Assembly: GCF_041431415.1 (NCBI RefSeq)
Contig: NZ_CP107845.1
Location: forward strand, 1,364,001 to 1,428,000
DNA from: Streptomyces sp. NBC_00513
GTDB lineage: Bacteria > Actinomycetota > Actinomycetes > Streptomycetales > Streptomycetaceae
Direction: 5' to 3'
DNA length: 64,000 bases
Part shown: one piece after another, positions 42,408 to 57,710 of the stretch
How positions within the stretch are numbered: position 1 is the first letter of the stretch
Layout of the letters: each line of letters begins with the position of its first letter
The notes under the pieces: generated by a model
What the model saw: the letters and a program-made list of their open reading frames with translations, nothing else
What the model was told of the DNA's origin: nothing
Database searches by the model: none
Made by a program: the position numbers and the translations under genes

Positions 42408-43382
42408 ATGCGTGCTGCCTACATAGAAGAACTCGGTCCCCCCGATTCCATCCGTCACGGCGAACTGCCGCCGCCCGTTCCCGGTTCGGGTGACGTGCTG
42501 GTCGACGTCGAGGTCACCGCCGTCAACCACGTGGACACCTTCGTGCGTTCGGGTGCCTGGCGAACCCCGGTGCCGTTCCCCTTCGTCGTGGGACGGGACC
42601 TCGTGGGAACGGTGGTCTCCGCCGGTCCCGGTGCGCCCGGCTTCGCGGCGGGTGACCGGGTGTGGTGCAACAGCCTCGGTCACGCGGGCCGGCAGGGCGC
42701 CGCCGCCGAACGGGTGGCCGTGCCGGCGGACCGGCTGTACCACCTGCCGGCGGGGGTGGACCCGGTGCACGCGGTGGCGCTGGCCCATCCGGCGGCGACG
42801 GCGCACCTCGCCCTGTTCACGCACGGTCGGGTCCGGGCCGGCGAGACGGTCCTCGTCCTCGGCGCCGCCGGGAACGTGGGGAGCGCGGCGGTGGTGATGG
42901 CCGCCCAGGCGGGCGCCCGGGTGGTGGCCGTGGCCGCCGGGCGCGACGCCGCGTACGTGCGCTCGCTGGGCGCCCGGCACTTCGTCGACTACCGCGAGGA
43001 GGACGTGCCGGCCCTGATCCGGGCGGCGGCCCCGGACGGCGTGGACCTGTACGTGGACACCTCGGGCCGCAACGACCTGGAGACGGCGGTGGAGTTGCTC
43101 GCCTCCCGAGGCCGGGTGGTCGTCCTCGCCGGACTGCGGACGCGTCCGGTGTTGCCGGCCGGCGCCCTGTACCTCCAGGACCGCTCGGTGCTCGGCTTCG
43201 CCATCTCCCACGCCCGTACGCACGAACTGGCGGACGCCGCCGCGAACATCAACCGGTTGCTGGCCGACGGGCTGCTGAAGCCGCACGCGACCGAGGTGCT
43301 GCCGCTGAGCGAGGCGGGCACGGCGCACCGTCGGCTCGACGAGGGAAAGGTCCGCGGAAAGCTCGTCCTGCGCGTTTCCTGA
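42408..43382 (+). CDS. Zinc-free MDR-family quinone oxidoreductase-like protein
   Basis: A 324-residue medium-chain dehydrogenase/reductase. It has the GroES-like N-terminal domain (FVVGRDLVGTV and GDRVWCNSLGHAG) and the Rossmann domain with the NADPH motif VLGAAGNVGSAAVV (about 143-156). It lacks the Cys/His zinc ligands of alcohol dehydrogenases, so it fits NADPH:quinone reductases (zeta-crystallin type). ATG 42408 is the start. It lies 96 bases before the SRPBCC gene on the same strand and might be an early gene of the nitrogen-oxide cluster, but nothing in its sequence proves this. Confidence 0.9.
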   Translation: MRAAYIEELGPPDSIRHGELPPPVPGSGDVLVDVEVTAVNHVDTFVRSGAWRTPVPFPFVVGRDLVGTVVSAGPGAPGFAAGDRVWCNSLGHAGRQGAAAERVAVPADRLYHLPAGVDPVHAVALAHPAATAHLALFTHGRVRAGETVLVLGAAGNVGSAAVVMAAQAGARVVAVAAGRDAAYVRSLGARHFVDYREEDVPALIRAAAPDGVDLYVDTSGRNDLETAVELLASRGRVVVLAGLRTRPVLPAGALYLQDRSVLGFAISHARTHELADAAANINRLLADGLLKPHATEVLPLSEAGTAHRRLDEGKVRGKLVLRVS

Positions 43383-43478: not shown

Positions 43479-44018
43479 ATGACGAACATCATCGAAACCT
43501 CACCGCTGTTTGAACTCCGCGCCGACATTTCGGTGAACGCCACGCCCGAGGAGGTGTACGCGGTGGTCAGCGACCTGCCGCGCAGTGCCGAATGGAGCCC
43601 GGAATGCATGGGCGGCGAATGGATCTCGGGAGAGCCCTCCGCGGTCGGTTCGATCTTCCGGGGCGAGAACCTGCGCAGCGAGCAGGTCGTCGCCTGGGCC
43701 CCGCTGGTCCGCGGCACCTGGTACACCGAGGCCCGGGTCACGGCGGCCGAGCCGGGCCGGACGTTCCGCTGGATGATGCTCACGCACGCCCAGGAGGACC
43801 AGGAGAGCGTCTGGGGCTTCGACGTGAAGGCCGACGGATCGGGTTCCGTGCTCACCCACCACTTCCGGATGGGAAAGGCGACCGCCGGAATCCACAAGAT
43901 CGTCGCGGATCTGGACGAGGCGGGGCGCCGGAAGTTCGTCGACGACTGGACGGCGAAGTTGGTGCAGGATCTCGACGCCACTCTCTCCCGCATCAAGGAC
44001 GTCATCGAAAAGGCCTGA
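43479..44018 (+). CDS. SRPBCC-superfamily (polyketide cyclase/dehydrase-like) protein
   Basis: A 179-residue START-like fold protein: RADISVNATPEEVYAVVSDLP, then SAEWSPECMGGEW and a final long helix DDWTAKLVQDLDATLSRIKDVIEKA. Such proteins bind hydrophobic ligands in a deep cavity, and in biosynthetic clusters act as cyclases, dehydratases or binding proteins. ATG 43479 follows AGGA. It is the first gene of the run that continues with the AMP-forming ligase 42 bases later. A role on an aromatic intermediate is inference. Confidence 0.87.
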   Translation: MTNIIETSPLFELRADISVNATPEEVYAVVSDLPRSAEWSPECMGGEWISGEPSAVGSIFRGENLRSEQVVAWAPLVRGTWYTEARVTAAEPGRTFRWMMLTHAQEDQESVWGFDVKADGSGSVLTHHFRMGKATAGIHKIVADLDEAGRRKFVDDWTAKLVQDLDATLSRIKDVIEKA

Positions 44019-44060
44019 ATTCAGACCGGCATCGGCAATTCACGGACGAGAGAGTGACGC

Positions 44061-45641
44061 ATGTTCCTCCAGCGCATAAACAACAAGGGAATTCGGCTCG
44101 GCACGCTGTTCGATCGAGCGGCCGCCCGACACCCCGGCAATTTCGTGATCCTCGACCACGATCTCGACATCGCCCCCGAGCTGAGCCGCAGGGCCACCCT
44201 GACGGAGGTCGCCGAACTGGTGGCGGAGCTGGCCTCCCGGCTGTGGTCGGTCCAGGTCCGCCCGGGTGACCACGTGGTGGTGCACAAGGGGGACGGGTTC
44301 GACATCACCCTGCTGGCCTGCGCCATCGCCCGCATCGGGGCCGTCCCGGTGCTGCTGTCGCCGAAGTTGGACGGGGCGACCGTCGCCGAGCTGCTGCGGC
44401 GCGTGGGCCGGCCGTTCCTGGTCACCGACCAGGAGAAGCTGGAGCATTCGCTGCCCGCCGAGGTCATGGCCCTCTCCCGGGAGGTGCTGCTCGCCTCCGG
44501 GGCGTACGAGGGCGCGACCGCGTTCGCCGCGCTCGCCGGGGCACCGCGGGTGCCGGCGGTCGCCATGCCCGCCGACCATCCCACCCTGATCACGCACACC
44601 TCGGGCACGACCGGCACGCCGAAGCTCGCCGTGCACACCGGCACCAGCTTCCAGGCGCGCTACCGGCCGCAGGCCACCGTGGTGTCGACGGCCGTGCGGC
44701 GCAGCGAACCGATCGCCGTGCACGTCTCGTTCGTCCACTCGCGGATGTTCACCGCGATGCCCATCGCCGTGCTCCAGGGCCATCCGCTGATCGTGTTGCG
44801 CGACGACGACCCGGAGACGGTGGGAGACCTGTTCAGCCAGGTGCCGCCGGGGTTCATCGAGGCGCACCCCAACACCTTCCTGCGCTGGGAGGTGTTGGCC
44901 GAGGACCCGCGCCGGCCGCTGGCCAACGTGAAGTACTTCTCCAGCACCTTCGACGCGATCCACCCCCGGACGGTGAACCGGCTGCTCCAGGCCTCCGGGC
45001 GGAAGAACCGCCGGTTCGCGCAGGCCTACGGCCAGAGCGAGGTCGGTCCGATCGCGGCCCGCACGTACTCCCTCAAGGACGGCGCCGACTTCAACGGCCG
45101 GTGCGTGGGCGTGCCGTTCCCCGGGATGACGGGGGTACGGGTCGTCAGCCGCGACGGCAACCCGCCGGACAAGGACAACCCGGGCTGGATCGAGGTCCGC
45201 AGCGACGGCCGGATCATCAGCTACCTCGGCGAGCACCAGCGCTGGGAGAAACAGGTCAACGACGGCTGGTGGCGCATGGGCGACGTCGGCTACCGCACCA
45301 AGTGGGGCTGTCTGCACCTGCTGGACCGCGAGGTGGACGAGATCCCGGGCGTCAAGAGCACCCTGGAGATCGAGGACAAGCTGTTCACCCGCGTCCCCGA
45401 GCTCGTCGAGGTCATCATCATCCCCGGCCCCGACGGCACCGCCGTCCCCGTGGTCAGCACCCGGGACGACAAGCCGCTGGACCTGGCCGCCTGGCAGTCG
45501 GCCGTGGTCGGGCTGCCGCCGCTGGCGGAGCCCGTGCAGTGGCGGCTGGAGGACCTCCCGCAGACCGCGACCACGAAGATCAAGCGCCTGGAGCTGGCCC
45601 GGCTGCTCGGCGCCGGCGAGTCCACGAGCACCGCCAACTAG
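44061..45641 (+). CDS. AMP-forming adenylate ligase, copy 1 (candidate N-activating/diazo-type or aryl-AMP ligase)
   Basis: A 526-residue ANL-superfamily enzyme. The ATP P-loop is HTSGTTGTPK (179-188). YGQSE (323-327), MGDVGYRT with Asp408, and TATTKIKR carrying the C-domain lysine near 506 are intact, so it should form an acyl- or similar adenylate. It aligns nearly without gaps to the ligase at 60953-62530, with shared blocks such as ILDHDLD, HVS-VHSRM, KYFS-TFDAIHP and LHLLDREVD. In cremeomycin-type pathways an ATP-dependent ligase homologue (CreM) joins nitrous acid to an aromatic amine. The nearby CreE/CreD pair makes that role plausible here, but ordinary carboxylate activation is equally consistent with the motifs. 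ATG 44061 follows GAGAGAG. Confidence 0.85.
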   Translation: MFLQRINNKGIRLGTLFDRAAARHPGNFVILDHDLDIAPELSRRATLTEVAELVAELASRLWSVQVRPGDHVVVHKGDGFDITLLACAIARIGAVPVLLSPKLDGATVAELLRRVGRPFLVTDQEKLEHSLPAEVMALSREVLLASGAYEGATAFAALAGAPRVPAVAMPADHPTLITHTSGTTGTPKLAVHTGTSFQARYRPQATVVSTAVRRSEPIAVHVSFVHSRMFTAMPIAVLQGHPLIVLRDDDPETVGDLFSQVPPGFIEAHPNTFLRWEVLAEDPRRPLANVKYFSSTFDAIHPRTVNRLLQASGRKNRRFAQAYGQSEVGPIAARTYSLKDGADFNGRCVGVPFPGMTGVRVVSRDGNPPDKDNPGWIEVRSDGRIISYLGEHQRWEKQVNDGWWRMGDVGYRTKWGCLHLLDREVDEIPGVKSTLEIEDKLFTRVPELVEVIIIPGPDGTAVPVVSTRDDKPLDLAAWQSAVVGLPPLAEPVQWRLEDLPQTATTKIKRLELARLLGAGESTSTAN

Positions 45642-45674
45642 TCGTCCGCGCACCGTAGGAATGGGAGTTCCGCA

Positions 45675-47654
45675 ATGAAGAAGAGCCGAGTAGAGCTCGC
45701 CGTCATCGGCGCCGGACCGCGCGGCCTGTCCGTCCTGGAGCGGCTGATCGCCGCCGAGCGGACCGCGCCTTCGCGCGAGGGCGTCGTGGTGCACGTCGTG
45801 GACCCCTCCGCGCCCGGCGCCGGAACGGTGTGGCGCGCGGCCCAGTCCCGGCACCTGCTGATGAACACCGTCGCCTCGCAGATCACCGTCTTCACGGACC
45901 ACAGCGTCCGCATCGACGGGCCCATCGAGCCGGGTCCGAGCCTCTACGAGTGGGCGCAGGGCCTGGCCCTGCTCGGGGACCGTGACAGCCACGACGAGGC
46001 CACGCTGGCCGAGGCCCGCCGGATGGGTCCGAACACGTACCCCACGCGCGCCTTCTACGGCACCTACCTGGGCGACTGCTTCCGCCGGGTCGTCGAGAGC
46101 GCGCCCGGCCACGTCACGGTGCACGTGCACCGGACGCGGGCGGTGGCCATGGCCGACACCCACGGGGTGCCGGGCGGACCGCAGGGCGTGCGGCTGGAGA
46201 ACGGCGTCCGGCTGAACGCGCTCGACGCCATCGTGATGGCGCAGGGGCACGTGCCGGCCCGGCTCACCAGCCGGGAGGCCCGGACGGCCAGCCTGGCCCG
46301 GATCCACCACCTCACCTACCTCACGCCCTCGAACCCGGCGGACCTGGACCTCAGCGGCATCGAGGCCGGCCAGAACGTGCTGTTGCGCGGTCTGGGCCTG
46401 AACTTCTTCGACCACATGGCGCTGCTGACGGCGGGCCGCGGCGGGGTCTTCGAGCGGGAGGGCGACAAGCTCGTGTACCGCCCGTCCGGGCAGGAGCCCC
46501 GGCTGTACGCGTTCTCGCGGCGCGGCATCCCCTACCACGCGCGCGGCGAGAACGAGAAGGGCGCGCACGGGCGTTACTACCCGCGGCTGCTGACCGCCGA
46601 GTTCATCGCGGCGCTCAAGGAGGACGCGCGGGACGGCCGGCCGGTCAGCTTCAGCGCCGACCTGTGGCCGCTGATCGCCCGCGAGGTGGAGAGCGTCTAC
46701 TACGCCACCCTGCTCACGCAGCGCGGCCGGGACGCCGAACGCGAGCCGTTCGTGGAGCAGTACCTGGCGCTGGAGCCGGACGCCGATCCCGCGCCACTGC
46801 TGACGGCGCACGGCATCGAGGAGGCCGACCGGTGGGACTGGGAGGGCCTCTCCCGTCCCTACGGCGACCGGGTGTTCACCGGCCGCGCCGATTTCACCGC
46901 CTGGCTGTTGGAGTACCTGGCCCGCGACGTGGTCGCGGCCAAGCAGGGGAACGTCAGCGGTCCCGTGAAGGCCGCCCTGGACCTGCTGCGCGACCTGCGC
47001 AACGAGATCCGGCTGGCGGTCGACCACGGCGGGCTGGAGGGCACCTCGCACCGCGACGACCTGGAGGGCTGGTACACGCCGCTCAACGCGTTCCTGTCCA
47101 TCGGCCCGCCGGCCTCCCGCATCGAGGAGATGGGCGCCCTGATCGAGGCGGGGGTCCTGACCATCCTCGGCCCCGGGGTGCAGGTCCGCATCGACACGAC
47201 CGCGCAGCTCTACGTGGCCGAGTCCTCGGTGGTTCCCGGTCCGGCGATCCGCGCGACCGCGCTGATCGAGGCCCGCCTGCCGGAGCCCGATCTGCGGCGC
47301 ACGGCCGACCCGTTGCTGCGCCACCTCCTGGACACCGACCAGGCCGCCACCTACCGGATCGACGCCGCGCAGGGCACCACGTACGAGACGGGCGGGCTCG
47401 CGGTGACCGAGCGGCCGTTCCACATGCTCGACGCGCGGGGCCGCGCGCATCCGCGACGGTTCGCGTACGGGGTGCCCACCGAATCGGTGCACTGGGTGAC
47501 CGCGGCGGGCATCCGTCCGGGCGTGGACTCGGTGACGCTCGGGGACTCCGACGCCATCGCCCGCGCGGTACTGGATCTGCCCGCGGTCGCGCACGTGCCG
47601 GCCGGGCTGGGCCCGGTGGACGCCGGCACCGACCTCACCGGAGTGATCGTCTGA
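45675..47654 (+). CDS. creE: CreE/FzmM-like FAD monooxygenase (aspartate to nitrosuccinate)
   Basis: A 659-residue flavoprotein of the FAD/NAD(P)-binding 9 type. The start VELAVIGAGPRGLSVLERL has the distinctive GxGPRG FAD motif (12-17), and the length suits CreE-like enzymes. Others of this group oxidise L-aspartate on nitrogen to nitrosuccinate using FAD, NADPH and O2. The identification rests on this fold plus the next gene, a CreD-type lyase, with which it overlaps by one base (TGATG). Other members of the broad family have unknown substrates, so aspartate is inferred. ATG 45675 follows GGGAG. It is in line with the ligase 33 bases upstream. Confidence 0.8.
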   Translation: MKKSRVELAVIGAGPRGLSVLERLIAAERTAPSREGVVVHVVDPSAPGAGTVWRAAQSRHLLMNTVASQITVFTDHSVRIDGPIEPGPSLYEWAQGLALLGDRDSHDEATLAEARRMGPNTYPTRAFYGTYLGDCFRRVVESAPGHVTVHVHRTRAVAMADTHGVPGGPQGVRLENGVRLNALDAIVMAQGHVPARLTSREARTASLARIHHLTYLTPSNPADLDLSGIEAGQNVLLRGLGLNFFDHMALLTAGRGGVFEREGDKLVYRPSGQEPRLYAFSRRGIPYHARGENEKGAHGRYYPRLLTAEFIAALKEDARDGRPVSFSADLWPLIAREVESVYYATLLTQRGRDAEREPFVEQYLALEPDADPAPLLTAHGIEEADRWDWEGLSRPYGDRVFTGRADFTAWLLEYLARDVVAAKQGNVSGPVKAALDLLRDLRNEIRLAVDHGGLEGTSHRDDLEGWYTPLNAFLSIGPPASRIEEMGALIEAGVLTILGPGVQVRIDTTAQLYVAESSVVPGPAIRATALIEARLPEPDLRRTADPLLRHLLDTDQAATYRIDAAQGTTYETGGLAVTERPFHMLDARGRAHPRRFAYGVPTESVHWVTAAGIRPGVDSVTLGDSDAIARAVLDLPAVAHVPAGLGPVDAGTDLTGVIV

Positions 47655-49138
47655 TGCCCGGCGGTCTGCGCCTGGTCGACCCGGCCGCGCCCCCTCCCGC
47701 GGCCGAGGTCGAGCCGGCTCCCGCGACGGCGCCCGACGCGGGCCTGCTCTCACCGGTCCGCGCCGGCACCCCCGTCGAGGCGGTGACCGGGGATCCCGCC
47801 TGGCTCCAGGCCATGTTGGACGCCGAGGCGGCACTGGCCCGGGCCCAGGCCCGGCTGGGCACCCTGCCCTGGCAGGCCGCCGACGCCATCACCGACGCGG
47901 CCCGGGCGGAGCGGCTGGACCTGCGCGAGCTGGCCGTCGCGGCCCGGGAGACGGCCAACCCGGTCGTGGGCCTGGTGCGGGCGCTGACCGCGGTGGTCGC
48001 GGCGGACTCCCCGGAGGCCGCCGAGTACGTCCACCGCGGCTCCACCAGCCAGGACATCTTCGACACCGGGGCGATGCTGGTGGCGCACCGCGCGCTGACG
48101 CTCGTGCGGGAGGACCTGACGCGTACCGCGACGGCCCTGGCCGCGCTGGCCGGGGAGCACCGGGACACGCTGATCGCCGGTCGGACGATGGCGCTGCACG
48201 CCGTGCCGACGACGTTCGGGTTGAAGGCGGCGGGCTGGCTCCAGCTGGTGCGCGAGGCCCGGGAGCGGCTCGCGCGGGTCCAGGAGGAGGGGCTGCCCGT
48301 CTCGCTGGGCGGCGCGGCGGGAACCCTGGCCGGGTACGTCGAGTACGCCGGCCTCGACGGCCCCGAGGGCTCCGAGGACGTGCTGGACCCGGGGGTCTTC
48401 CACGACCGGCTGGTCGCCGCGTACGCCGCCGAGACGGGCCTGGCCCGGCCGGCGTTGCCGTGGCACAGCCTGCGCACGCCGCTCGCCGACCTGGCGGCGG
48501 CGCTCGCCTTCACGGCGGGGGCGCTCGGGAAGATCGCCGTGGACGTGCAGGGCATGGCCCGGACCGAGGTCGGCGAACTCGCCGAACCGGGCGGCGCCGG
48601 GCGGGGAAGTTCCTCCGCGATGCCCCACAAGCGCAATCCGGTGCTGTCCACGCTGATCCGCAGCGCGGCCCTCCAGGTCCCGGCCCTGGCGGGCGCGTTG
48701 ACGGCCTGTCTGGTGTCGGAGGACGAGCGGTCCGCGGGCGCCTGGCACGCCGAGTGGTTGCTGCTGCGGGAGTGCCTGCGGCTGGTGGGCGGCGCCTCGC
48801 ACACGGCCGTGGAACTGACCGAGGGGCTGGAGGTCAGGTCGGAGCGGATGCGCGCCAACCTGGACCTCACCGGCAGCGCGGTGGTCTCGGAGCGGATCGT
48901 GGCCGTGCTCGCCCCACGGCTCGGGAAGGCCGCGGCCCGCACGCTGTTGAACGAGGCCACGGCGACGGCCGGCGCCGAGGGACGGCCCCTGGCGGACGTC
49001 CTCGCCGAGGCTCCCGAGCTGGCGGGCGTCCTGGGGCCGGCGGCGCTGGCGGGCCTGTGCGATCCGGCCGGGTACACGGGCGCGGCGCGCGCCCTGGTGG
49101 AACGCGCCCTGGTGGAACGCGCCCCCAAGCGGCCCTGA
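47654..49138 (+). CDS. creD: CreD-like nitrosuccinate lyase (fumarase/adenylosuccinate lyase superfamily)
   Basis: A 494-residue lyase. The superfamily signature GRGSSSAMPHKRNP (about 316-329) carries the catalytic serine loop; STSQDIFDT (130-138) and TMALHAVPTTFG (178-189) supply substrate-binding residues. General databases would call it 3-carboxy-cis,cis-muconate cycloisomerase or adenylosuccinate lyase. Coupling to a CreE-like gene points to nitrosuccinate lyase, which releases nitrous acid and fumarate. It has an extra Pro/Ala-rich N-terminal 40 residues. Its 3' end holds a perfect 15-base tandem duplication (49091-49120) giving ALVERALVER. Confidence 0.82.
   Translation: MPGGLRLVDPAAPPPAAEVEPAPATAPDAGLLSPVRAGTPVEAVTGDPAWLQAMLDAEAALARAQARLGTLPWQAADAITDAARAERLDLRELAVAARETANPVVGLVRALTAVVAADSPEAAEYVHRGSTSQDIFDTGAMLVAHRALTLVREDLTRTATALAALAGEHRDTLIAGRTMALHAVPTTFGLKAAGWLQLVREARERLARVQEEGLPVSLGGAAGTLAGYVEYAGLDGPEGSEDVLDPGVFHDRLVAAYAAETGLARPALPWHSLRTPLADLAAALAFTAGALGKIAVDVQGMARTEVGELAEPGGAGRGSSSAMPHKRNPVLSTLIRSAALQVPALAGALTACLVSEDERSAGAWHAEWLLLRECLRLVGGASHTAVELTEGLEVRSERMRANLDLTGSAVVSERIVAVLAPRLGKAAARTLLNEATATAGAEGRPLADVLAEAPELAGVLGPAALAGLCDPAGYTGAARALVERALVERAPKRP
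49091..49120 (+). repeat. In-frame 15-base tandem duplication at the 3' end of the CreD-like gene
   Basis: GCCCTGGTGGAACGC is repeated perfectly twice in tandem, producing ALVER twice. It is a recent slippage event in the C-terminal tail, probably neutral. Confidence 0.9.
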
Positions 49139-49180
49139 GCGGGCCCGAGTCGCCCCGAGCGGCCTGAGCGGCACCCCGTC

Positions 49181-49213
49181 GGGCCCGGTGTCGCCGAGAG
49201 GCGGACCGGGCCC
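49181..49213 (+). terminator. Intercistronic hairpin between creD-like and narK-like genes
   Basis: GGGCCCGGT (49181-49189) and ACCGGGCCC (49205-49213) pair perfectly; the 15-base loop contains a further GCC-GAGA-GGC. It lies in the only sizeable gap (89 bases) of the same-strand run, 14 bases before the NarK start codon. It could terminate or attenuate transcription, or stabilise the upstream message. Confidence 0.55.
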
Positions 49214-49227
49214 CAGAGAGGAGAGAC

Positions 49228-50610
49228 ATGAAGACCAGGCCCGCCGCCGGGCGGTGGATCGAAGGCTGGAACCCGGAGGACGAGCAGTACTGGGAGCGCA
49301 CCGGGAAGCGGATCGCGCGCCGCAACCTGGCACTGTCCGTGCTGTCCGAACACATCGGGTTCTCGGTGTGGAGCATGTGGTCGGTGCTCGTGCTGTTCAT
49401 GTCGCCGGAGATCGGCCTCGGGTTCACCCCCGGTGAGAAGTTCCTGCTCGTCGTGGTGCCGACCCTGGTGGGCGCCGTGTTGCGGCTGCCGTACAGCTGG
49501 GCGGTGACCCGGTTCGGCGGTCGCAACTGGACGGTGTTCGCCTCGGCCGTGCTGCTGGTGCCGGCGCTGCTCGCGTTCGTCTTCGTGCAGCGCCCGGGGA
49601 CCCCGCTGTGGGTGTTCCTGGTCATCGGCGCCACGGCCGGGGTGGGCGGCGCCAACTTCGCCTCCTCGATGACCAACATCACCACCTTCTTCCCGCAGAA
49701 CCGCCAGGGCTGGGCCCTGGGGGTGAACGCCGGCGGCGGCAACCTCGGCGTGGCCGTGGTGCAGTTGCTGGGCCTGCTGGTGATCGCCACGGCCAGGGAC
49801 ACCCACCCGTCGTACGTGGCCGCCGTCTATCTCCCGCTGATCGTGCTCTCCGCGCTGCTCGCGGCCCTGAAGATGGACAACGTCGACGCCGTCCGGGCCC
49901 GGCCCGGGGCGCTGCGCGAGGCCGCCGCGAGCCGCCACACCTGGTTCATCTCCTTCCTGTACATCGGCACGTTCGGTTCCTTCATCGGCTACGGGTTCGC
50001 CTTCGGGCTGGTGTTGCAGAACGAGTTCGGCTCGACGCCGCTCGAAGCGGCCTCGTACACGTTCATCGGCCCGCTGCTCGGCTCGGTGTCACGGCCGCTC
50101 GGCGGGAAGCTCGCCGACCGCTGGGGCGGGGCGCGCGTCACCCTGTGGGCGTTCCTGGCGCTGGCCCTGGGAACGGCGGGGCTGCTGCTGGCCTCGCGGG
50201 CCGGGTCCTTCGGGGCGTTCGTCGCGGCCTTCACCCTGGTCTTCGTGCTCAGCGGGCTCGGCAACGGCTCCACGTACAAGCTGATCCCGGCCGCGGCCGC
50301 CGCCGAGGCGGAGGCCACCATCACCTCGGGCGGCGAGGCCCGGCAGGCCTTCGCCCGGGCCCGTCGGATCTCGGGCGCCGCCATCGGCATCGCGGGCGCG
50401 GTCGGCGCGCTCGGCGGGGTCGCGATCAACCTGGCGTTCCGCGCCTCCTACCAGGGGCCACAGGGCAGCGGCACCACGGCGTTCGCCTGCTTCCTCGGCT
50501 ACTACGCGCTCTGCGTGCTGCTCACCTGGGCGGTGTACCTGCGTCCCGGGCGGCGGGTCGCCCAGGGACCCGCCCCATCGCGCGAGCCGAGGCCGGCCCA
50601 TGTCCGCTGA
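49228..50610 (+). CDS. narK: NarK-type nitrate/nitrite MFS transporter
   Basis: A 460-residue transporter with twelve membrane segments. It has the nitrate-porter signatures: an N-terminal NLALSVLSEHIGFSVWSMWSV, and the Gly/Asn-rich helix-5 motif GVNAGGGNLGVAVVQ (about 168-182), with the matching GLGNGSTYKLIP on helix 11. Members move nitrate or nitrite, often in exchange for each other. ATG 49228 follows GAGGAGAGA. Its end overlaps the nitrate reductase start by 11 bases, so the two are coupled. In this setting it may import nitrate or export nitrite. Confidence 0.92.
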   Translation: MKTRPAAGRWIEGWNPEDEQYWERTGKRIARRNLALSVLSEHIGFSVWSMWSVLVLFMSPEIGLGFTPGEKFLLVVVPTLVGAVLRLPYSWAVTRFGGRNWTVFASAVLLVPALLAFVFVQRPGTPLWVFLVIGATAGVGGANFASSMTNITTFFPQNRQGWALGVNAGGGNLGVAVVQLLGLLVIATARDTHPSYVAAVYLPLIVLSALLAALKMDNVDAVRARPGALREAAASRHTWFISFLYIGTFGSFIGYGFAFGLVLQNEFGSTPLEAASYTFIGPLLGSVSRPLGGKLADRWGGARVTLWAFLALALGTAGLLLASRAGSFGAFVAAFTLVFVLSGLGNGSTYKLIPAAAAAEAEATITSGGEARQAFARARRISGAAIGIAGAVGALGGVAINLAFRASYQGPQGSGTTAFACFLGYYALCVLLTWAVYLRPGRRVAQGPAPSREPRPAHVR

Positions 50611-52690
50611 CCCGGCCGCGGCGCCCGAGGCCGCCACGCACTGCGCGTACTGCGCCCTCCAGTGCCCGACCGTACTGCGCGACGAGGGCGACGCGGTCGC
50701 CGTCCGGCCGGCCGACCCCGCCGGGGGCGGCCTGTGCCAGAAGGGCTGGACGGCCCCCGCGGTGCTCCGGGCGCCCGACCGGCTGCGGACCCCGCTGGTG
50801 CGCGGCCCCGACGGGCGACTGGCACCCACCGACTGGGACTCGGCGCTCGACCTGGTCGCCGGTCGGCTGGCACGGCTGCGCGGGGAGCACGGCGCGGACG
50901 CCGTCGGGGTGTTCGGCAGCGGCGGACTGACCAACGAGAAGGCCTATCTGCTCGGCAAGTTCGCCCGGGTGGCGCTCGGCACCAGCAGGATCGACTACAA
51001 CGGCCGCTTCTGCATGTCGTCGGCCGCCGCCGCCGGGAACGCGGCCTTCGGGCTCGACCGGGGTCTGCCGTTCCCCGTCGCGGACCTCGGGCGTGCGCAG
51101 GTCATCCTGCTGGCCGGCGCCAACCCCGCCGAGACGATGCCGCCGTTGATGCGGCACTTGAACCGGGCGCGCCTCGTCGTGATCGACCCGCGCCGCACCC
51201 GTACCGCCGAGCTGGCCGCGCTGCACCTCCAGCCCGTGCCGGGCACCGATCTGGCCCTGGCCCTGGGCCTGTTCCACCTCGCCGTCACGGAAGGCCTGCT
51301 CGACGAGGCGTACGTGGCCGAGCGCACCACCGGCTTCGACGAGGCCTGGCGGCGGGCCGTGGCCTGGTGGCCCGAGCGGGTGGAGGGGATCACCGGCGTA
51401 CCGGTCGCGGACATGCGCGAGGCCGTGCGGATGCTCGCCGGGGCGGACCGCCGGTACGTGCTCACCGGGCGCGGCGCCGAACAGCACAGCAAGGGCACCG
51501 ACACGGTGTCCGCGTTCGTCAACCTGTCGCTCGCGCTGGGCCTGCCGGGCACCCCGGGCAGCGGGTACGGCTGCCTGACCGGCCAGGGCAACGGGCAGGG
51601 CGGACGCGAGCACGGCCAGAAGGCCGACCAGCTCCCCGGGTACCGGATGATCACCGACCCGGCGGCGCGCGCCCACGTGGCGGGCGTCTGGGGCGTGGAG
51701 CCCGACACCCTGCCCGGCCCGGGCACCGGCGCCTACCAGCTGCTCGACTCCCTCGGCACGCCCGGCGGACCCAAGGCCCTGCTGGTCTTCGGCTCCAATC
51801 CGGCGGTGTCCGCCCCGAACGCGGCGCACGTGTCGCGCCGGCTGGCCGCCCTGGACCTGCTGGTCGTCGCCGATTTCGTGCCGTCCGAGACGGCGGCCCT
51901 GGCCGACGTGGTGCTGCCCGTCACCCAGTGGGCCGAGGAGGAGGGCACCCTGACCAATCTGGAGGGGCGGGTGGTGCGCCGCCGCCCGGTCCTGGCCCCG
52001 CCGCCCGGGGTACGGACCGACCTCGACGTGCTGCACGGGCTCGCGACGCGACTGGGGCAGCCTCCCGAACGGTTCCCGACGGCGCCGCGCACGGTCTTCG
52101 AGGAGCTGCGCCGGGCCTCCGCCGGGGGCCGCGCCGACTACGCGGGGATCAGCTGGGAACGGCTCGACGCGGGCGAGGAGTTGTACTGGCCCTGCCCGGC
52201 GGACGACGGCGGCGCCCGGCATCCCGGTACGCCCCGGATGTTCCTGGACCGCTTCGCGCACCCGGACGGGCGGGCCCGGTTCGCCCCGGTGGAGGACCGG
52301 GAATCCGCGGAGGTCCCGGACGCCGGGCGGCCGCTCCTCGCGACGACGGGCCGGGTCCTGGCCCACTACCAGTCGGGGGCGCAGACCCGCCGGGTACCCG
52401 AACTGATGGCCGTCGCACCGGAGGTGTTCGTCGAGGTCCACCCGGACACGGCCGGGCGCTTCGGACTGACCGACGGCGCTCACGCCCGGGTCGTCTCCGC
52501 GCACGGGGCGGTGGTGGCCCGGGTCCGGCTGGTGGAGAGCCTGCGCGCCGACACCGTGTTCGTGCCGTTCCACTTCCCCGGCGCGGGCCGGGCCAACCTG
52601 ATGACCGGGCCCGCCCTGGACCCGGTCAGCGGCATGCCGGAGTTCAAGTTGGCCGCCGTCCGCGTCGAACCCTGGTCGGAGTCCTCGTGA
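50600..52690 (+). CDS. nasA: NasA-type molybdopterin nitrate reductase
   Basis: A 696-residue oxidoreductase of the assimilatory Nas/Nap-like DMSO reductase family, which reduces nitrate to nitrite in the cytoplasm. The N-terminal [4Fe-4S] ligands are Cys15, Cys18, Cys22 and Cys46. NGRFCMSSAAAAG provides Cys138, the expected molybdenum ligand. The two bis-MGD regions (LLAGANPAETMPP and LLVFGSNPAVSAPN) and the C-terminal MopB domain are present. No Tat signal is seen, so it stays inside. It lacks a C-terminal BFD domain; the next gene supplies one. It overlaps narK and the next gene by a few bases each. Confidence 0.93.
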   Translation: MSADPAAAPEAATHCAYCALQCPTVLRDEGDAVAVRPADPAGGGLCQKGWTAPAVLRAPDRLRTPLVRGPDGRLAPTDWDSALDLVAGRLARLRGEHGADAVGVFGSGGLTNEKAYLLGKFARVALGTSRIDYNGRFCMSSAAAAGNAAFGLDRGLPFPVADLGRAQVILLAGANPAETMPPLMRHLNRARLVVIDPRRTRTAELAALHLQPVPGTDLALALGLFHLAVTEGLLDEAYVAERTTGFDEAWRRAVAWWPERVEGITGVPVADMREAVRMLAGADRRYVLTGRGAEQHSKGTDTVSAFVNLSLALGLPGTPGSGYGCLTGQGNGQGGREHGQKADQLPGYRMITDPAARAHVAGVWGVEPDTLPGPGTGAYQLLDSLGTPGGPKALLVFGSNPAVSAPNAAHVSRRLAALDLLVVADFVPSETAALADVVLPVTQWAEEEGTLTNLEGRVVRRRPVLAPPPGVRTDLDVLHGLATRLGQPPERFPTAPRTVFEELRRASAGGRADYAGISWERLDAGEELYWPCPADDGGARHPGTPRMFLDRFAHPDGRARFAPVEDRESAEVPDAGRPLLATTGRVLAHYQSGAQTRRVPELMAVAPEVFVEVHPDTAGRFGLTDGAHARVVSAHGAVVARVRLVESLRADTVFVPFHFPGAGRANLMTGPALDPVSGMPEFKLAAVRVEPWSESS

Positions 52691-54069
52691 GCGGGATCGT
52701 CGTCGTCGGCCACGGCCCGGCCGCCCACCGCCTCTGCGCCTCCCTGCACCGGCTCGGGCACCGGGGTCCGGTGACCGTCCTGGCAGCCGAGCCGCACGCC
52801 GCCTACAACCGGGCCCTGCTGCTGTCGGTCCTGGACGGCACCCTGCCCGGCCGCGCCCTGGAGCTGGCCGCGCCGCCGGGGAACGCGCGGGTGCGCCGGG
52901 CGGCCGTCGTGACCGGCATCGACCGTGCCCGACGCGAGGTCCGTACCGCCGACGGGACCGGGTACGGGTACGAGGTCCTGGTGCTGGCCACCGGGGCGCG
53001 CCCGCGGTCCCCCGGCTTCGACTCCCCCGCCGTGCGCCGATTGGGCACCCTCGCCGACGCCGAACCGCCGCCGGAGGGGCCGGTGGTGATCGCCGGGGGC
53101 GGGCTGCGCGGGGCGGGCGCCGCCGCCGCGCTGAGCGGCGCCGGGCACGAGGTGACGTTGGTGCACTCCGGGCCGCGGCTCGCCCACCGCGACCTCGACG
53201 GGCCTGCCTCGGCGGTACTGGCGCGGACCCTGGAGGAGGCCGGCGTGGCCTTGGAACTCGGCCGCCGGGTGGCCGGCGCCGAGCACGGCAAGGCCGTGCT
53301 GGACGACGGCCGGCTGCTCGCGGCGGCCACCGTGCTGGCGTGCGCGGGCAGCGTCCCGGAGACCGCGGTGGCCCGGGCGGCGGGGCTGGAGGTGCGGCGC
53401 GGGATCGTGGTGGACGACCGGCTGCGCACCGGCGATCCGCGGATCCACGCCATCGGGGACTGCGCCGAACACGCGGGCGCCGCCGGGGACTCACTGACGT
53501 CGGCGTGGGAACAGGCGGACGCCCTCGCAAGCATCCTGACCGGCTCGGACAGGCCGTACCGGCCGACGCGACGCGTGCTGCGCCCCGGGATCCGGGGACT
53601 GGAACTGACGGTCGTCGGCCAGGGCGGGGAACCCGCTCCGGACCGGGAACCGGCCCCCGGCGAGGAAAGCGTGTCGCTGTCCGATCCGGGCGGCGGGCGC
53701 CACGCCCGACTGCGGCTGCGCGAAGGCCGGATCCGGTCCGGGATCGTCGCGGGGTTCCCGCAGGCCGTCGCCGCCGTGGGCCGGCTGTACGCGCGGGACC
53801 TCCCGGTGCCGAGCGACCGGCTGGCCCTGCTGATCGGTTCCGCCGGCGGGTACGCGGCCTCGGGCGCGCTGCCGGACACGGCCGTGGTCTGCCAGTGCAA
53901 CAACGTGACCCGGGGGGCCCTTCGGCAGGCCTGGGCCGGCGGTGCCCGCGCCCTGCCCGAGCTCGCCGCCGCGACCCGGGCCACCACGGGCTGCGGGACC
54001 TGTGTCCCGGCGGTGGGCCGGCTCTGCGCCGAACTCGCCCGATCCGCGGAAGGGGGGCACCGCCCGTGA
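52687..54069 (+). CDS. FAD oxidoreductase with C-terminal BFD-type [2Fe-2S] domain (NasB-like electron donor)
   Basis: A 460-residue flavoprotein. It starts VVVGHGPAAHRL (FAD site variant), has a second site [16 protein letters not shown] at 133-148, and GDCAEHAG (258-265) as the terminal FAD motif. The C terminus (400-440) has a BFD-like cluster with Cys402, Cys404, Cys436 and Cys439 (CQC and GCGTC). Such subunits pass electrons from NAD(P)H to the nitrate reductase. The GTG start overlaps the nasA stop (GTGA), and its own stop overlaps the next gene the same way. Alternative donors cannot be excluded. Confidence 0.87.
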   Translation: MSGIVVVGHGPAAHRLCASLHRLGHRGPVTVLAAEPHAAYNRALLLSVLDGTLPGRALELAAPPGNARVRRAAVVTGIDRARREVRTADGTGYGYEVLVLATGARPRSPGFDSPAVRRLGTLADAEPPPEGPVVIAGGGLRGAGAAAALSGAGHEVTLVHSGPRLAHRDLDGPASAVLARTLEEAGVALELGRRVAGAEHGKAVLDDGRLLAAATVLACAGSVPETAVARAAGLEVRRGIVVDDRLRTGDPRIHAIGDCAEHAGAAGDSLTSAWEQADALASILTGSDRPYRPTRRVLRPGIRGLELTVVGQGGEPAPDREPAPGEESVSLSDPGGGRHARLRLREGRIRSGIVAGFPQAVAAVGRLYARDLPVPSDRLALLIGSAGGYAASGALPDTAVVCQCNNVTRGALRQAWAGGARALPELAAATRATTGCGTCVPAVGRLCAELARSAEGGHRP

Positions 54070-55268
54070 GCGGGACCCTGGTCCTCGCCGGCCACGGCAT
54101 GGTCGGCCACCGGCTCCTCGAACTCCTGCGGGCGGACGAGCGGTTCGCGTCGTGGCGGATCGTCGTCGCGGCCGAGGAACCCCGCGCCGCCTACGACCGG
54201 GTGGCGCTCTCCTCGTACCTGGACGGGCGGAGCGCCCGGGACCTGACGCTGACCGGCCCCGAGGTCCTGGAGGACCCCCGGGTCGAACTGCGGCTCGGGG
54301 TTCCGGTCGTCGCGATCGAGCGGGCGACCCGTACGGCGACCTTCGCGGACGGCTCGCACGTGCGGTACGACGCACTCGTGCTGGCCACCGGGTCGAAGCC
54401 GTTCGTGCCGCCGATCCCCGGTCACACCCTGCCGGGCTGCTTCACCTACCGGACCCTCGCGGACCTCGACGCCCTGCGCGCGGCCGCCGAACCGGGCGCC
54501 GCCGGCGTGGTGATCGGCGGCGGGCTGCTGGGGCTGGAGGCGGCGCAGGCCCTGCGTTCGCTGGGAATGCGACCCCATGTGGTGGAGGTGGCCCCGCACC
54601 TGATGCCGCTCCAACTCGACGAGGGCGGGGGCGCGGTGCTGGCCCGCCTGGTGGGCCGGCTCGGCATGAGCGTGCACTGCGGCCGCGGCGTGGCGTCCGT
54701 GGACGCGGGCCCCGACGGGTGGGTCCGCGAGGTGACGCTGGCCGACGGTGACGTGCTGCCCGCCCGTTGCGTGGTGTTCTCGGCGGGGGTCCGCCCGCGC
54801 GACGAACTGGCCGAGCCGGCCGGGCTTCCGCGCGGGGAGCGGGGCGGTTTCCTGGTGGACGCCCACTGCCGTACCGAGGACCCCCGGATCTGGGCGGTCG
54901 GAGAGTGCGCGGCCGTCCTGGGCCGCTGCCACGGCCTGGTCGCCCCCGGCTACCTGATGGCCGAGAGCGTGGCCGCGCAACTGACCGGCAGGGCGTCCGA
55001 GCCCTTCCCGGGCGCCGACACCTCGGCGAAGCTGAAGGTGTTCGGCGTGGACGTGGCCGGGTTCGGCGACGTCCACGCCCGGGTCGAGGGCGCGCTGTCC
55101 TTCGTACGGGAGGACCACACGGCCGCCACCTACGCCAAGTTGGTCCTCGGCCCGGACGGCCGCACCCTCCTCGGTGGCGTCCTGGCCGGCGACACGCGCG
55201 CCTACGGGGAACTCCGCTCGATGCTGGGCCACGAACTGACCGGGCCCCCGGAGCGGCTGCTCGTCTGA
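54066..55268 (+). CDS. NirB N-terminal-type NAD(P)H/FAD oxidoreductase lacking the siroheme half
   Basis: A 400-residue flavoprotein corresponding to the first half of the large subunit of assimilatory nitrite reductase. It has GHGMVGHRLLELL (FAD), VLATGSKPFVPP, VVIGGGLLGLEAAQAL (NAD site, about 157-171) and IWAVGECAAVLG, then the C-terminal reductase domain (SAKLKVFGVDVAGFGD). The sulfite/nitrite reductase domains and siroheme cysteines that normally follow (a full NirB is about twice as long) are absent. It is thus an electron carrier, probably for the nitrate reductase. The gene ends the run and is closed by a strong terminator. Confidence 0.88.
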   Translation: MSGTLVLAGHGMVGHRLLELLRADERFASWRIVVAAEEPRAAYDRVALSSYLDGRSARDLTLTGPEVLEDPRVELRLGVPVVAIERATRTATFADGSHVRYDALVLATGSKPFVPPIPGHTLPGCFTYRTLADLDALRAAAEPGAAGVVIGGGLLGLEAAQALRSLGMRPHVVEVAPHLMPLQLDEGGGAVLARLVGRLGMSVHCGRGVASVDAGPDGWVREVTLADGDVLPARCVVFSAGVRPRDELAEPAGLPRGERGGFLVDAHCRTEDPRIWAVGECAAVLGRCHGLVAPGYLMAESVAAQLTGRASEPFPGADTSAKLKVFGVDVAGFGDVHARVEGALSFVREDHTAATYAKLVLGPDGRTLLGGVLAGDTRAYGELRSMLGHELTGPPERLLV

Positions 55269-55862: not shown

Positions 55863-57113
55863 TCAGTGGGCGGCCGCGGTGGCCGGGTCGGTCGCCGGTT
55901 CGGCGGCCGGGGCGGAGTCGGTCGGGCGGCCGGAGCGTCGGCCGACGACGAGGAGGGTGAGGATTGCGAGGCCCGCGCCGATGTACAGGACGCTGGCGGT
56001 GGCGAGGTTGTCCACGGCGATGCCGCCGAAGAGGGCGCCGAGGGCGATCGACAGGTTGAAGGTGGAGACGTACAGGGAGGAGGCGGCCTCGGTCGCGTCG
56101 GGGGCGGCGTCGAGGATCCAGGTCTGGAAGGTCACCGGCACGGCGCCGTAGCCCAGGCCCCACAGGACGAGGATGACGGCCGCGGTGACGGTGGTGTTGC
56201 CGACGGTGGCGAGCAGCAGCATGGCGACGGCGAGGACGATCGCGATGCCGATGACGACCTGGCGCAGCCGCTTGGCGATCAGGGCGCCGGCGATGAAGTT
56301 GCCGGTGATGCCGGCGATGCCGAAGGTCAGCAGCAGGACACCGATCATGTTGTCGCCGACGCCGTCGTCCTGGAGGAGCGGACGGACGAAGGTGTAGGCG
56401 AGGAAGTGGCCGGTGATGACGAGGAAGGTCATCGCGATGCCGATGCGGACGCCGGCGTTGGACTTCCACACGCGGGGCAGGTCACCGAAGACGATGGTGC
56501 GCTCGGCCGGGACCTTCGGCATCAGGAAGAGCATGGCGGCGAGGGCGACGAGGCCGAGGATGCCGACCGCGGCGAAGGCGGTGCGCCAGCCGGAGAGGTC
56601 GCCGAGGAAGGTGCCGGTGGGCACGCCGAGCACGGAGGCCGTTTCCACGCCGCCGAAGATGACGGCGGTGGCGCGGGCGACGTGTCGTTCGGGGACCAGG
56701 CGCAGGGCGATGCCGCCGGCGATGGACCAGAAGCCACCGACGCTGATGCCGATGAGGAAGCGGGCGACCAGGACCACGGCGAAGCTGGTGGCGAAGGCGG
56801 AGGCGAGGTTCGCCAGGCCGACGATGGCGATCAGGATGACCAGGACGAGCCGCCGGTCGAACTTTCCGGTGGCGACGGTCACCAGCGGGGCCGAGATCGC
56901 CGCGACCAGGCCGGGGATGGTGACCATGAGGGCCGCCGTGCCCTCGGAGACCTTCAGGGCGTCCCCGACGGGGGTGAGCAGGCCGACGGGCAGCAGCTCG
57001 GAGGTCATGAGGGAGAAGATGCCGAGGGTGACGGCCAGGACGGCCAGCCAGCCCTTGACCGCGGAGGGTTCCTTGCCCGCGGTGCGCGGTGCGGATGAAT
57101 CGAGGGTGGTCAC
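55863..57113 (-). CDS. MFS transporter, DHA1-type
   Basis: A 416-residue transporter with twelve membrane segments of the DHA1/AraJ-like sugar or drug exporter group: ELLPVGLLTPVGDALKVS after helix 1, TGKFDRRLVL as motif A, FLIGISVGGFWSIAGGIALRLVP for helix 4 to 5 and motif C-like GTFLGDLSGWR. GTG 57113 follows AAGGAC. It lies between two halves of the putative cluster, but its own promoter and a palindrome at 57198 give no regulator link. It could export a product or be unrelated. A terminator lies downstream. Confidence 0.9.
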   Translation of the reverse strand: MTTLDSSAPRTAGKEPSAVKGWLAVLAVTLGIFSLMTSELLPVGLLTPVGDALKVSEGTAALMVTIPGLVAAISAPLVTVATGKFDRRLVLVILIAIVGLANLASAFATSFAVVLVARFLIGISVGGFWSIAGGIALRLVPERHVARATAVIFGGVETASVLGVPTGTFLGDLSGWRTAFAAVGILGLVALAAMLFLMPKVPAERTIVFGDLPRVWKSNAGVRIGIAMTFLVITGHFLAYTFVRPLLQDDGVGDNMIGVLLLTFGIAGITGNFIAGALIAKRLRQVVIGIAIVLAVAMLLLATVGNTTVTAAVILVLWGLGYGAVPVTFQTWILDAAPDATEAASSLYVSTFNLSIALGALFGGIAVDNLATASVLYIGAGLAILTLLVVGRRSGRPTDSAPAAEPATDPATAAAH

Positions 57114-57257: not shown

Positions 57258-57710
57258 CTACTCGGTTCCGGGGGTCTTGCGGGTGGCGACGTTCATCCGG
57301 TTCCACACGTTGGCGGTGAAGATGAGCGCGATCAGGTGCGCGAGCTCCTCCTCGCCGAAGTGGCGGGCGGCCTCGTCGTAGACGGCGTCGGTGACTCCGC
57401 CGGGGAGGAGGGTGACCTCCTCGGTGAGGGCGAGTGCCGCGCGCTCCTTGACGGTGAAGAGGCTGGACTCCTGCCAGGCGGTGAGCTGGTAGATCCGCTC
57501 TTCCGACTCGCCGCCCTTGCGGGCGTCGCTGGTGTGGTAATCGATGCAGTAGGCACAGCGGTTGATCTGCGAGGTGCGGATCTGGACGAGCTCCAGGAGG
57601 ATCGGGTCGAGGCCCTGTCGGGCGGCCCCGTCGAGGGCCAGGACGGACTTGAAGATCTTGGGGGCGACGGCGGCGAAGTTCATGCGCTCAGGAACCTGAA
57701 AAGTGGTCAT
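57258..57710 (-). CDS. Carboxymuconolactone decarboxylase/AhpD-like protein
   Basis: A 150-residue alkylhydroperoxidase-type protein. The AhpD core ELVQIRTSQINRCAYCIDYH contains Cys52, Cys55 and His59, a redox-active CxxC with the general-base His. Members reduce peroxides or other thiol targets. ATG 57710 is used; TACAGT lies seven bases before the start codon's likely transcription start, so the message may be leaderless. It is divergent from the MocR gene with 46 bases between starts, the usual MocR-target layout. Confidence 0.9.
   Translation of the reverse strand: MTTFQVPERMNFAAVAPKIFKSVLALDGAARQGLDPILLELVQIRTSQINRCAYCIDYHTSDARKGGESEERIYQLTAWQESSLFTVKERAALALTEEVTLLPGGVTDAVYDEAARHFGEEELAHLIALIFTANVWNRMNVATRKTPGTE

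Follow-up and report, generated by a model that had tools for sequence, protein, structure and literature searches.

Two probable nitrite supplies, an aspartate route and a nitrate reductase module, beside one putative diazotase in a Streptomyces gene run

Why would a single run of Streptomyces genes encode two different ways of making nitrite? The question is raised by Streptomyces sp. NBC_00513, a strain with an 8.6 Mb genome, in which a stretch of 64,000 nucleotides (contig NZ_CP107845.1, positions 1,364,001 to 1,428,000; hereafter the window, in whose numbering coordinates are given unless another source is named) carries eight open reading frames in a row on the + strand, from 43479 to 55268. 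Their spacings of 42, 33, -1, 89, -11, -4, and -4 bp bear out the original prediction of eight same-strand genes, mostly overlapping or closely spaced, and the families assigned at that time hold on comparison with Pfam, NCBIfam, and PDB entries. In gene order, the Pfam families are PF10604 (SRPBCC/cyclase-like), PF00501 (AMP-binding), PF13454 (NAD_binding_9), PF00206 (Lyase_1), PF07690 (major facilitator superfamily, MFS), PF00384 (molybdopterin oxidoreductase), PF07992 with PF04324 (BFD), and PF07992. The answer that we consider probable is that the run holds two exchangeable nitrite supplies, one encoded by the third and fourth genes and the other by the last four, for one diazotase, encoded by the second gene.

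The aspartate route would consist of a CreE-type L-aspartate N-hydroxylase, or nitrosuccinate synthase (45675-47654, +), and a CreD-type nitrosuccinate lyase (47654-49138, +). The first protein matches PDB entries 8CP2/8CP5, the L-aspartate N-hydroxylase of Streptomyces sp. V2 (PMC10404684), with 659 bits and over its full length (residues 7-634), and it keeps 12 of the 13 residues of the cofactor site, entry chamber, and tunnel named in that paper; the sole change is the peripheral Arg597, replaced by Asp at the extreme end of the alignment. The second exceeds the NCBIfam equivalog model for nitrosuccinate lyase, NF052556 (781.4 bits, cut-off 650), and scores 613.5 bits against the CreD structure 5XNY. 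Its loop SSSAMPHKRNP fits the consensus SSxMPxKRNP proposed in PMC13411527, and the stretch SEDERSAGAWHAEW, which holds R341/W346/H347 of the S. cremeus CreD, is identical in the alignment. Judged from sequence, the two proteins are thus close homologues of characterised enzymes with nearly all of the checked active-site residues kept, and the 659- and 494-residue products find their best characterised matches where the original prediction had placed them.

The second supply begins with a NarK-type nitrate/nitrite transporter (49228-50610, +), whose best solved relatives are NarU (286 bits) and NarK (282 and 280 bits) and which lies under the NCBIfam cut-off of TIGR00886 (270.5 versus 311.7 bits). 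It is followed by a NasA-type molybdopterin nitrate reductase (50600-52690, +), in which the N-terminal [4Fe-4S] motif C..C...C...C and the NGRFCM site, which we take to be the Cys-Met molybdenum site, match those of housekeeping NasA. The next gene encodes a flavin adenine dinucleotide (FAD)/BFD [2Fe-2S] flavoprotein (52687-54069, +; PF07992 with PF04324), probably the electron donor of NasA and 36-41% identical to housekeeping flavoproteins. The last gene (54066-55268, +; PF07992 with PF18267) had been called NirB-type, and this family assignment stands, with the restriction that the protein matches only the N-terminal half of NirB. It is 52-57% identical to the N-terminal halves of full NirB proteins, falls below the curated NirB cut-off (425.7 versus 578 bits), and measures 374-420 residues in the cluster loci where it was called, versus 843-867 residues for housekeeping NirB. 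A siroheme/4Fe-4S half is missing: the Pfam scan found neither PF01077 nor PF03460 (the NIR_SIR domains) in it, whereas the full housekeeping NirB of a relative, G173, has both (G labels denote sampled genomes and L labels locus stretches). Because the NirB-like protein is without nitrite-reductase domains, the module should end at nitrite.

That NasA acts on nitrate at all might be questioned, as it could be a tailoring enzyme for another substrate, such as a pathway intermediate with an N-oxide, nitro, or diazo group. Molybdopterin reductases are versatile, and the cluster NasA proteins form a clade of their own, 15 of them being separated from 6 housekeeping NasA proteins by a branch with a Shimodaira-Hasegawa-like approximate likelihood ratio (SH-aLRT) support of 100. 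Moreover, the window protein reaches 714.6 bits against the NasC equivalog model NF047855, under its cut-off of 1100, and is therefore filed as NasA-like and not as NasC. However, its [4Fe-4S] motif and NGRFCM site are those of the housekeeping enzyme, it travels with a nitrate/nitrite transporter, and it is absent from 14 related clusters that have the same diazotase, all of which makes a tailoring role highly improbable.

A consumer for the nitrite was missed by the original prediction, and it is probably encoded within the run itself. The AMP ligase (44061-45641, +; PF00501) is likely an ATP-dependent arylamine diazotase of the Pzm18/CreM type. It adjoins both an SRPBCC-family gene (43479-44018, +; PF10604, 45 bits), the counterpart of pzm19, and the CreE-CreD operon, as expected of a Pzm18-type ligase, and it is 70% identical, over the part available for comparison, to the gene that occupies the Pzm18 position in S. 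halstedii (L008). Its best PDB match is an enzyme named FadD, and the N-nitrosating Tri17 (9BQ0, 8TF7) comes second and third. Pzm18 was reported as a CreM homologue with 48% identity, and the pzm table lists a 180-residue SRPBCC protein adjoining Pzm18 and a 334-residue quinone reductase, Pzm13 (PMC9323291). A counterpart of the latter, a zinc-binding dehydrogenase/quinone reductase (42408-43382, +; PF00107/PF08240), lies 96 bp upstream of the SRPBCC gene, so that the run begins one gene earlier than first noted; such a dehydrogenase gene accompanies the SRPBCC-ligase pair in many related loci.

On the other side, further cluster genes occupy the minus strand as far as 64000 and past the window end. 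They include a second AMP ligase (60953-62530, -; PF00501), 51% identical to the first, and an anthranilate-synthase/PhzE-like enzyme of 628 residues (62576-64000, -), which extends past the window end and whose PF00425 and PF00117 domains were read on L234, the continuation of the same genome. Beyond the window follow genes for an isochorismatase (PF00857), a 2,3-dihydroxybenzoate (DHB)-type dehydrogenase, a class II 3-deoxy-D-arabino-heptulosonate 7-phosphate (DAHP) synthase (PF01474), a WrbA-like protein, a DDE transposase, and a Streptomyces antibiotic regulatory protein (SARP)-type regulator. The dehydrogenase exceeds the 2,3-dihydro-2,3-dihydroxybenzoate dehydrogenase model TIGR04316 (340.7 bits, cut-off 300). 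A gene set for 3-hydroxyanthranilate (PhzE-like synthase, isochorismatase, DHB-type dehydrogenase, and DAHP synthase) is therefore present together with CreE, CreD, and the putative diazotase, and the whole mirrors pzm6-pzm13 and pzm17-pzm19. Because a Pzm18-type ligase is combined with the upstream SRPBCC and quinone reductase genes and the downstream 3-hydroxyanthranilate genes, the run is, by its gene content, part of a pzm-like diazo cluster reaching past the window. The transposase-type gene (L234:14267-15619; PF13546) corresponds to pzm10 of the pzm table and is kept in 16 compared loci, an odd persistence for a transposase.

The proposed role of the run is that of the nitrite-supply and diazotisation arm of this cluster. 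CreE would convert L-aspartate into nitrosuccinate, from which CreD would free nitrite. In parallel, NarK would import nitrate (or move nitrite), and NasA would reduce nitrate to nitrite with NAD(P)H as the electron source and the BFD and NirB-like flavoproteins as carriers; the NirB-like protein, without its siroheme half, would not take nitrite on to ammonia. Both nitrite pools would reach the AMP ligase, which would activate nitrite with ATP and diazotise an aryl amine derived from 3-hydroxyanthranilate, the genes of the run presumably being transcribed together in this strain. Under some conditions the two supplies would be redundant, and either could be lost. CreE consumes oxygen and reductant for each aspartate, and NasA requires nitrate and two electrons; with both sources, a cluster could form nitrite whether or not nitrate is available, and at a lower demand for oxygen.

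The arrangement is found well beyond this strain. A survey of 392 genomes of the genus, own genome included, found CreD over the cut-off of the family search in at least 107, a lower bound because only four candidates per genome were scored; the CreD of G385 was missed. For comparison, 119 stretches around CreD were used, from these 107 genomes and from G264, which lies just below the cut-off, and the second CreD copies in the terminal repeats of G068, G108, and G351 were left out. NarK and NasA genes downstream of CreD in the same orientation were seen by sequence in 13 of the 392 genomes, among them the own genome and a near twin, G167, and G385 adds a 14th case, known from coordinates only; 14 other genomes have the same SRPBCC-ligase-CreE-CreD set without nitrate genes. 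The full order also occurs in 5 of 80 named CreD loci, those of S. lateritius, Streptomyces sp. RPT161, Streptomyces sp. TBY4, S. toxytricini, and S. europaeiscabiei, although the two samples overlap: at least two of these loci, L037 and L039, come from assemblies already counted among the 13. The SRPBCC-ligase pair precedes CreE, immediately or separated by a single extra gene, in 11 of the 12 loci with upstream sequence; L118 begins at CreE, and the exception is L129, from G289, in which the gene before CreE is not the ligase. Apart from G289, no same-strand NasA followed CreD in other cluster types among the surveyed CreD loci. In G108 the cluster is present twice, at C1 97844-107007 and 11220811-11229974; the copies, one close to each chromosome end, score identically and are oppositely oriented, and they are probably terminal repeats.

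Spacing and divergence also bear on the relation of the two parts. In L006, L143, and L129 the narK reading frame begins before creD has ended, and creD and narK lie -4 to 42 bp apart in 7 of 16 relatives measured. Genetic distances of CreE correlate with those of NasA (r 0.71) and NarK (r 0.83) over 14 loci, with L225 dropped; these values fit a long joint history and are no proof of joint function.

Further support for two exchangeable supplies comes from their distribution around the diazotase, which was recognised by an identity of at least 65% and an E value of at most 1e-220, and which occurs in 34 of the 392 genomes, at 39 places. Both sources adjoin it in 13 genomes (G000, G167, G173, G367, G108, G071, G134, G321, G303, G278, G250, G331, and G385, where G331 spans a contig break and G385 is called by coordinates only), CreE-CreD only in 14 (G272, G005, G219, G017, G361, G146, G032, G196, G062, G295, G080, G233, G259, and G023), the nitrate module only in four (G009, G069, G239, and G356), and neither nearby in two; G289 is unassigned. 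At the extra ligase places of G259 and G385 there is CreE without CreD nearby, or neither. By sequence, all four nitrate-only clusters (L262, L264, L267, and L268) have the SRPBCC gene, the ligase, NarK, NasA, and the two flavoproteins in a row.

Two of them, L262 and L264, still bear scars of CreD. G009 retains a fragment of the CreD end (residues 421-476) between the ligase and NarK, and in G069 two CreD pieces (24-56 and 125-382) remain, with no CreE. The nitrate-only clusters of G239 and G356 hold no trace of CreD. When CreD was scored across these four genomes, nothing exceeded 61% identity save the G069 remnants, with CreD-like proteins of 60-61% in G239 and G069 and no match at all in G356. 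A distant CreD-like protein of G009 was set aside as PcaB on account of its neighbours, whose families we take to be those of a pca operon. The reverse scar is seen in Streptantibioticus ferralitis (L005), which keeps CreE-CreD and only residues 2-112 of NarK and groups in the ligase tree as sister to L013, a locus with both sources. On this tree (37 rows, with L008, L055, and L036 dropped) the nitrate-only state requires four changes on the best tree and at least two on well supported branches; because the tree is unrooted, only the scars distinguish gain from loss. The label CreE-CreD only is unsure for L020 and L214, because both stretches end soon after CreD. Since either source can be missing in related species while the other stays, these patterns suggest that the two nitrite sources are interchangeable.

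The same losses bear on another explanation, in which NarK and the module protect against nitrite, NarK exporting a surplus from CreE-CreD while NasA and the flavoproteins adjust the balance between nitrate and nitrite or deliver electrons to other processes. Solved relatives of NarK do include a "nitrite extrusion protein". In addition, another cluster subfamily (L056, L152, and L159) has a NarK-like gene (43-45%) on the opposite strand, adjoining the SRPBCC, dehydrogenase, and CreE-CreD genes but not accompanied by NasA, and transport of nitrite or nitrate may thus be a more general feature. However, NasA makes nitrite from nitrate and would raise the load, and the module persists where CreE-CreD is gone; a protective role is very unlikely indeed.

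A possible regulatory link was found in one branch, where L037 and L039 carry the palindrome TGAACTGTATRGTTCA between a TetR-family gene (identified by Pfam for L037) and the SRPBCC gene, and again before narK; a third copy precedes a pirin gene (L037:1516, L039:2524), possibly a further member of the regulon. The palindrome also occurs before narK in L118 and before the SRPBCC gene in L215, which is without nitrate genes. With up to two mismatches it was found in no other of 270 sequences (4.57 Mb), except in duplicates of the same assemblies. A common control of the diazotase operon and narK may exist in this branch. GlnR-type boxes were considered and rejected, as the window holds 30 matches versus 30.2 expected, with 0 in the creD-narK gap, and Rfam gave zero matches in 36000-64000.

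The explanation that competes most directly is that the module is an ordinary nitrate-assimilation operon beside a diazo cluster, transcribed alone and feeding NirBD and growth and not the product. The cluster NasA proteins of the 13 carriers are 73-100% identical to that of the window, and a second NasA (61-68%) exists elsewhere in 10 of these 13 genomes and in 4 of 4 genomes with a nitrate-only cluster, because of which the cluster NasA looks dedicated. No second enzyme of that kind was found in the own genome, G167, or G134, where the housekeeping NasA and the flavoprotein beside NirB are missing and full-length NirB is kept; in the own genome (L248/L249, 2762000-2801800) the housekeeping neighbourhood is otherwise conserved. 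As a result of this loss, the cluster copy may well serve assimilation in the present strain. The coupling of primary nitrate use to a specialised product, put forward in the original prediction, thus holds only in part, as the cluster NasA looks dedicated in most carriers and is the only one of its kind found in these three genomes.

Several observations weigh against two exchangeable supplies, in addition to the low NasC score. The loss of the housekeeping NasA is no commoner in carriers (3/13) than in clusters without the module (2/14), and its use as a sign of takeover by the cluster copy was rejected for this lack of enrichment. Similar modules with the same short NirB occur outside diazo clusters in G180, G105, and G047, as NasA-flavoprotein-short NirB adjoining unrelated genes (L263, L265, and L266), and NasA of 69-75% identity is present in eight further genomes. 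Neither the NasA clade nor the short NirB is therefore exclusive to diazo clusters, and the short NirB is a trait of the module and not a proven adaptation to diazo chemistry. In G105 and G301 neither source is next to the diazotase, with CreD elsewhere in both; G009 and G239 have a CreE-like gene (57%) elsewhere; and the NasA of G250/S. toxytricini (L039/L124) is split between two frames, by sequencing error or decay. The ligase reaches only 79.4 bits against the AvaA6 diazotase equivalog NF058622 (cut-off 975) and is therefore not an AvaA6 equivalog. The palindrome was found neither in the window nor in most clusters with the module, so that the link in the window rests on gene order and spacing. 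Finally, the creD-narK gap of the window (49139-49227, +) measures 89 bp and folds into a GC-rich hairpin without a T-run, possibly a partial terminator or attenuator; as a significant structure it was rejected, being no more stable than chance (z -1.54, with 16 of 200 shuffles as stable).

Of these points, the like modules outside the cluster and the gap with its hairpin, together with the missing housekeeping NasA and flavoprotein beside a full NirB, favour separate assimilation. On the other hand, the module follows CreD in 13 genomes, most carriers and all nitrate-only genomes have another NasA, NarK overlaps CreD in three loci, one branch has a palindrome common to both operons, the module shows neither the catalytic half of NirB nor a NirD gene, and the two sources are lost alternately. 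An ordinary assimilation operon is therefore unlikely. The original view of two independent routes to the same reagent fits these data and is strengthened by recurrence across species, the usual second NasA, and alternate loss; what it lacked was the consumer and the pzm-like setting.

Among known systems, the penzonemycin (pzm) cluster of Streptomyces sp. SCSIO 40020 (PMC9323291) is matched here by counterparts of CreD, CreE, the quinone reductase, the CreM-type ligase beside SRPBCC, the second ligase, and four 3-hydroxyanthranilate genes; unlike the present cluster, its published 22-gene table lists no NarK, nitrate reductase, or NirB-like gene. The tasikamide aha cluster (review PMC11705231), likened by description and not by sequence, also combines Aha1/Aha2 (CreD/CreE) with a CreM-type diazotase, Aha11, acting on an anthranilate-derived amine, and the passages of the review on it mention no nitrate reductase. 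The ava and cma clusters pair AvaE/AvaD or CmaE/CmaD with an ATP-dependent diazotase, but on another scaffold (3-amino-4-hydroxybenzoic acid, 3,4-AHBA, and a type II polyketide synthase) and with no nitrate reductase in the gene table (PMC10777205). The nearest precedent is provided by L-alanosine clusters without the aspartate route, in which the distal nitrogen has been proposed to come from nitrate by way of nitrate and nitrite reductases (Wang and Ryan 2023, cited in PMC11705231). As in the nitrate-only clusters, the aspartate route is missing and the nitrogen of the N-N bond would derive from nitrate, but there a nitrite reductase would continue the chain, to nitric oxide by the title of that study, whereas the present module has no nitrite reductase, its acceptor would be a diazotase, and in many clusters both sources occur together. 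Housekeeping Streptomyces NasA/NirBD loci use the same enzyme families, one layout (G303) being NasA-flavoprotein-NirB-NarK, with NirB at full length and not short as in the cluster. No report linking CreE/CreD, nitrosuccinate, or diazotization clusters with nitrate reductase was found in open-licence papers, a search with subscription papers mostly outside it.

Further genes lie in the region. Between the run and the second ligase lie an MFS efflux-type transporter (55863-57113, -), also present at the corresponding place in G173; a carboxymuconolactone-decarboxylase/AhpD-like protein (57258-57683, -; PF02627) and a MocR/PdxR-type regulator (57757-59259, +; NF052282, 390 bits, cut-off 320), whose membership in the cluster is unsure; and an FAD aromatic monooxygenase (59350-60921, -; PF01494) found in related clusters (8 loci). 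Upstream of the run, the window encodes a berberine-bridge-type FAD oxidase (38241-39770, -; PF08031) and, about 22 kb away, a bacterial nitric oxide synthase oxygenase domain (19659-20624, -; PF02898, 434 bits), one more enzyme of nitrogen oxides; either may or may not belong to the cluster.

What appears to be new is a CreE-CreD-diazotase cluster with a built-in, dispensable nitrate-to-nitrite module. A bolder version, which we offer tentatively, is that such clusters have an exchangeable nitrite-supply slot, filled by the oxygen-dependent aspartate route, by a dedicated nitrate reductase stopping at nitrite, or by both; environmental nitrate would then be the nitrogen source for the N-N bonds of nitrate-only members, and the cluster NasA of the present strain would also carry primary nitrate assimilation. 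The nitrogen source of many diazotase clusters without CreE-CreD is an open question, the aspartate route being missing from 72 of 134 ava-like clusters (PMC10777205), and matched clusters with both sources, either source, or the scar of a missing one therefore make it testable. If two exchangeable supplies do feed one diazotase, a specialised pathway would have taken in an enzyme set of primary metabolism as an additional feed, perhaps of use when oxygen is low or the soil is rich in nitrate, and nitrate reductase modules could serve in genome mining as markers of N-N chemistry.

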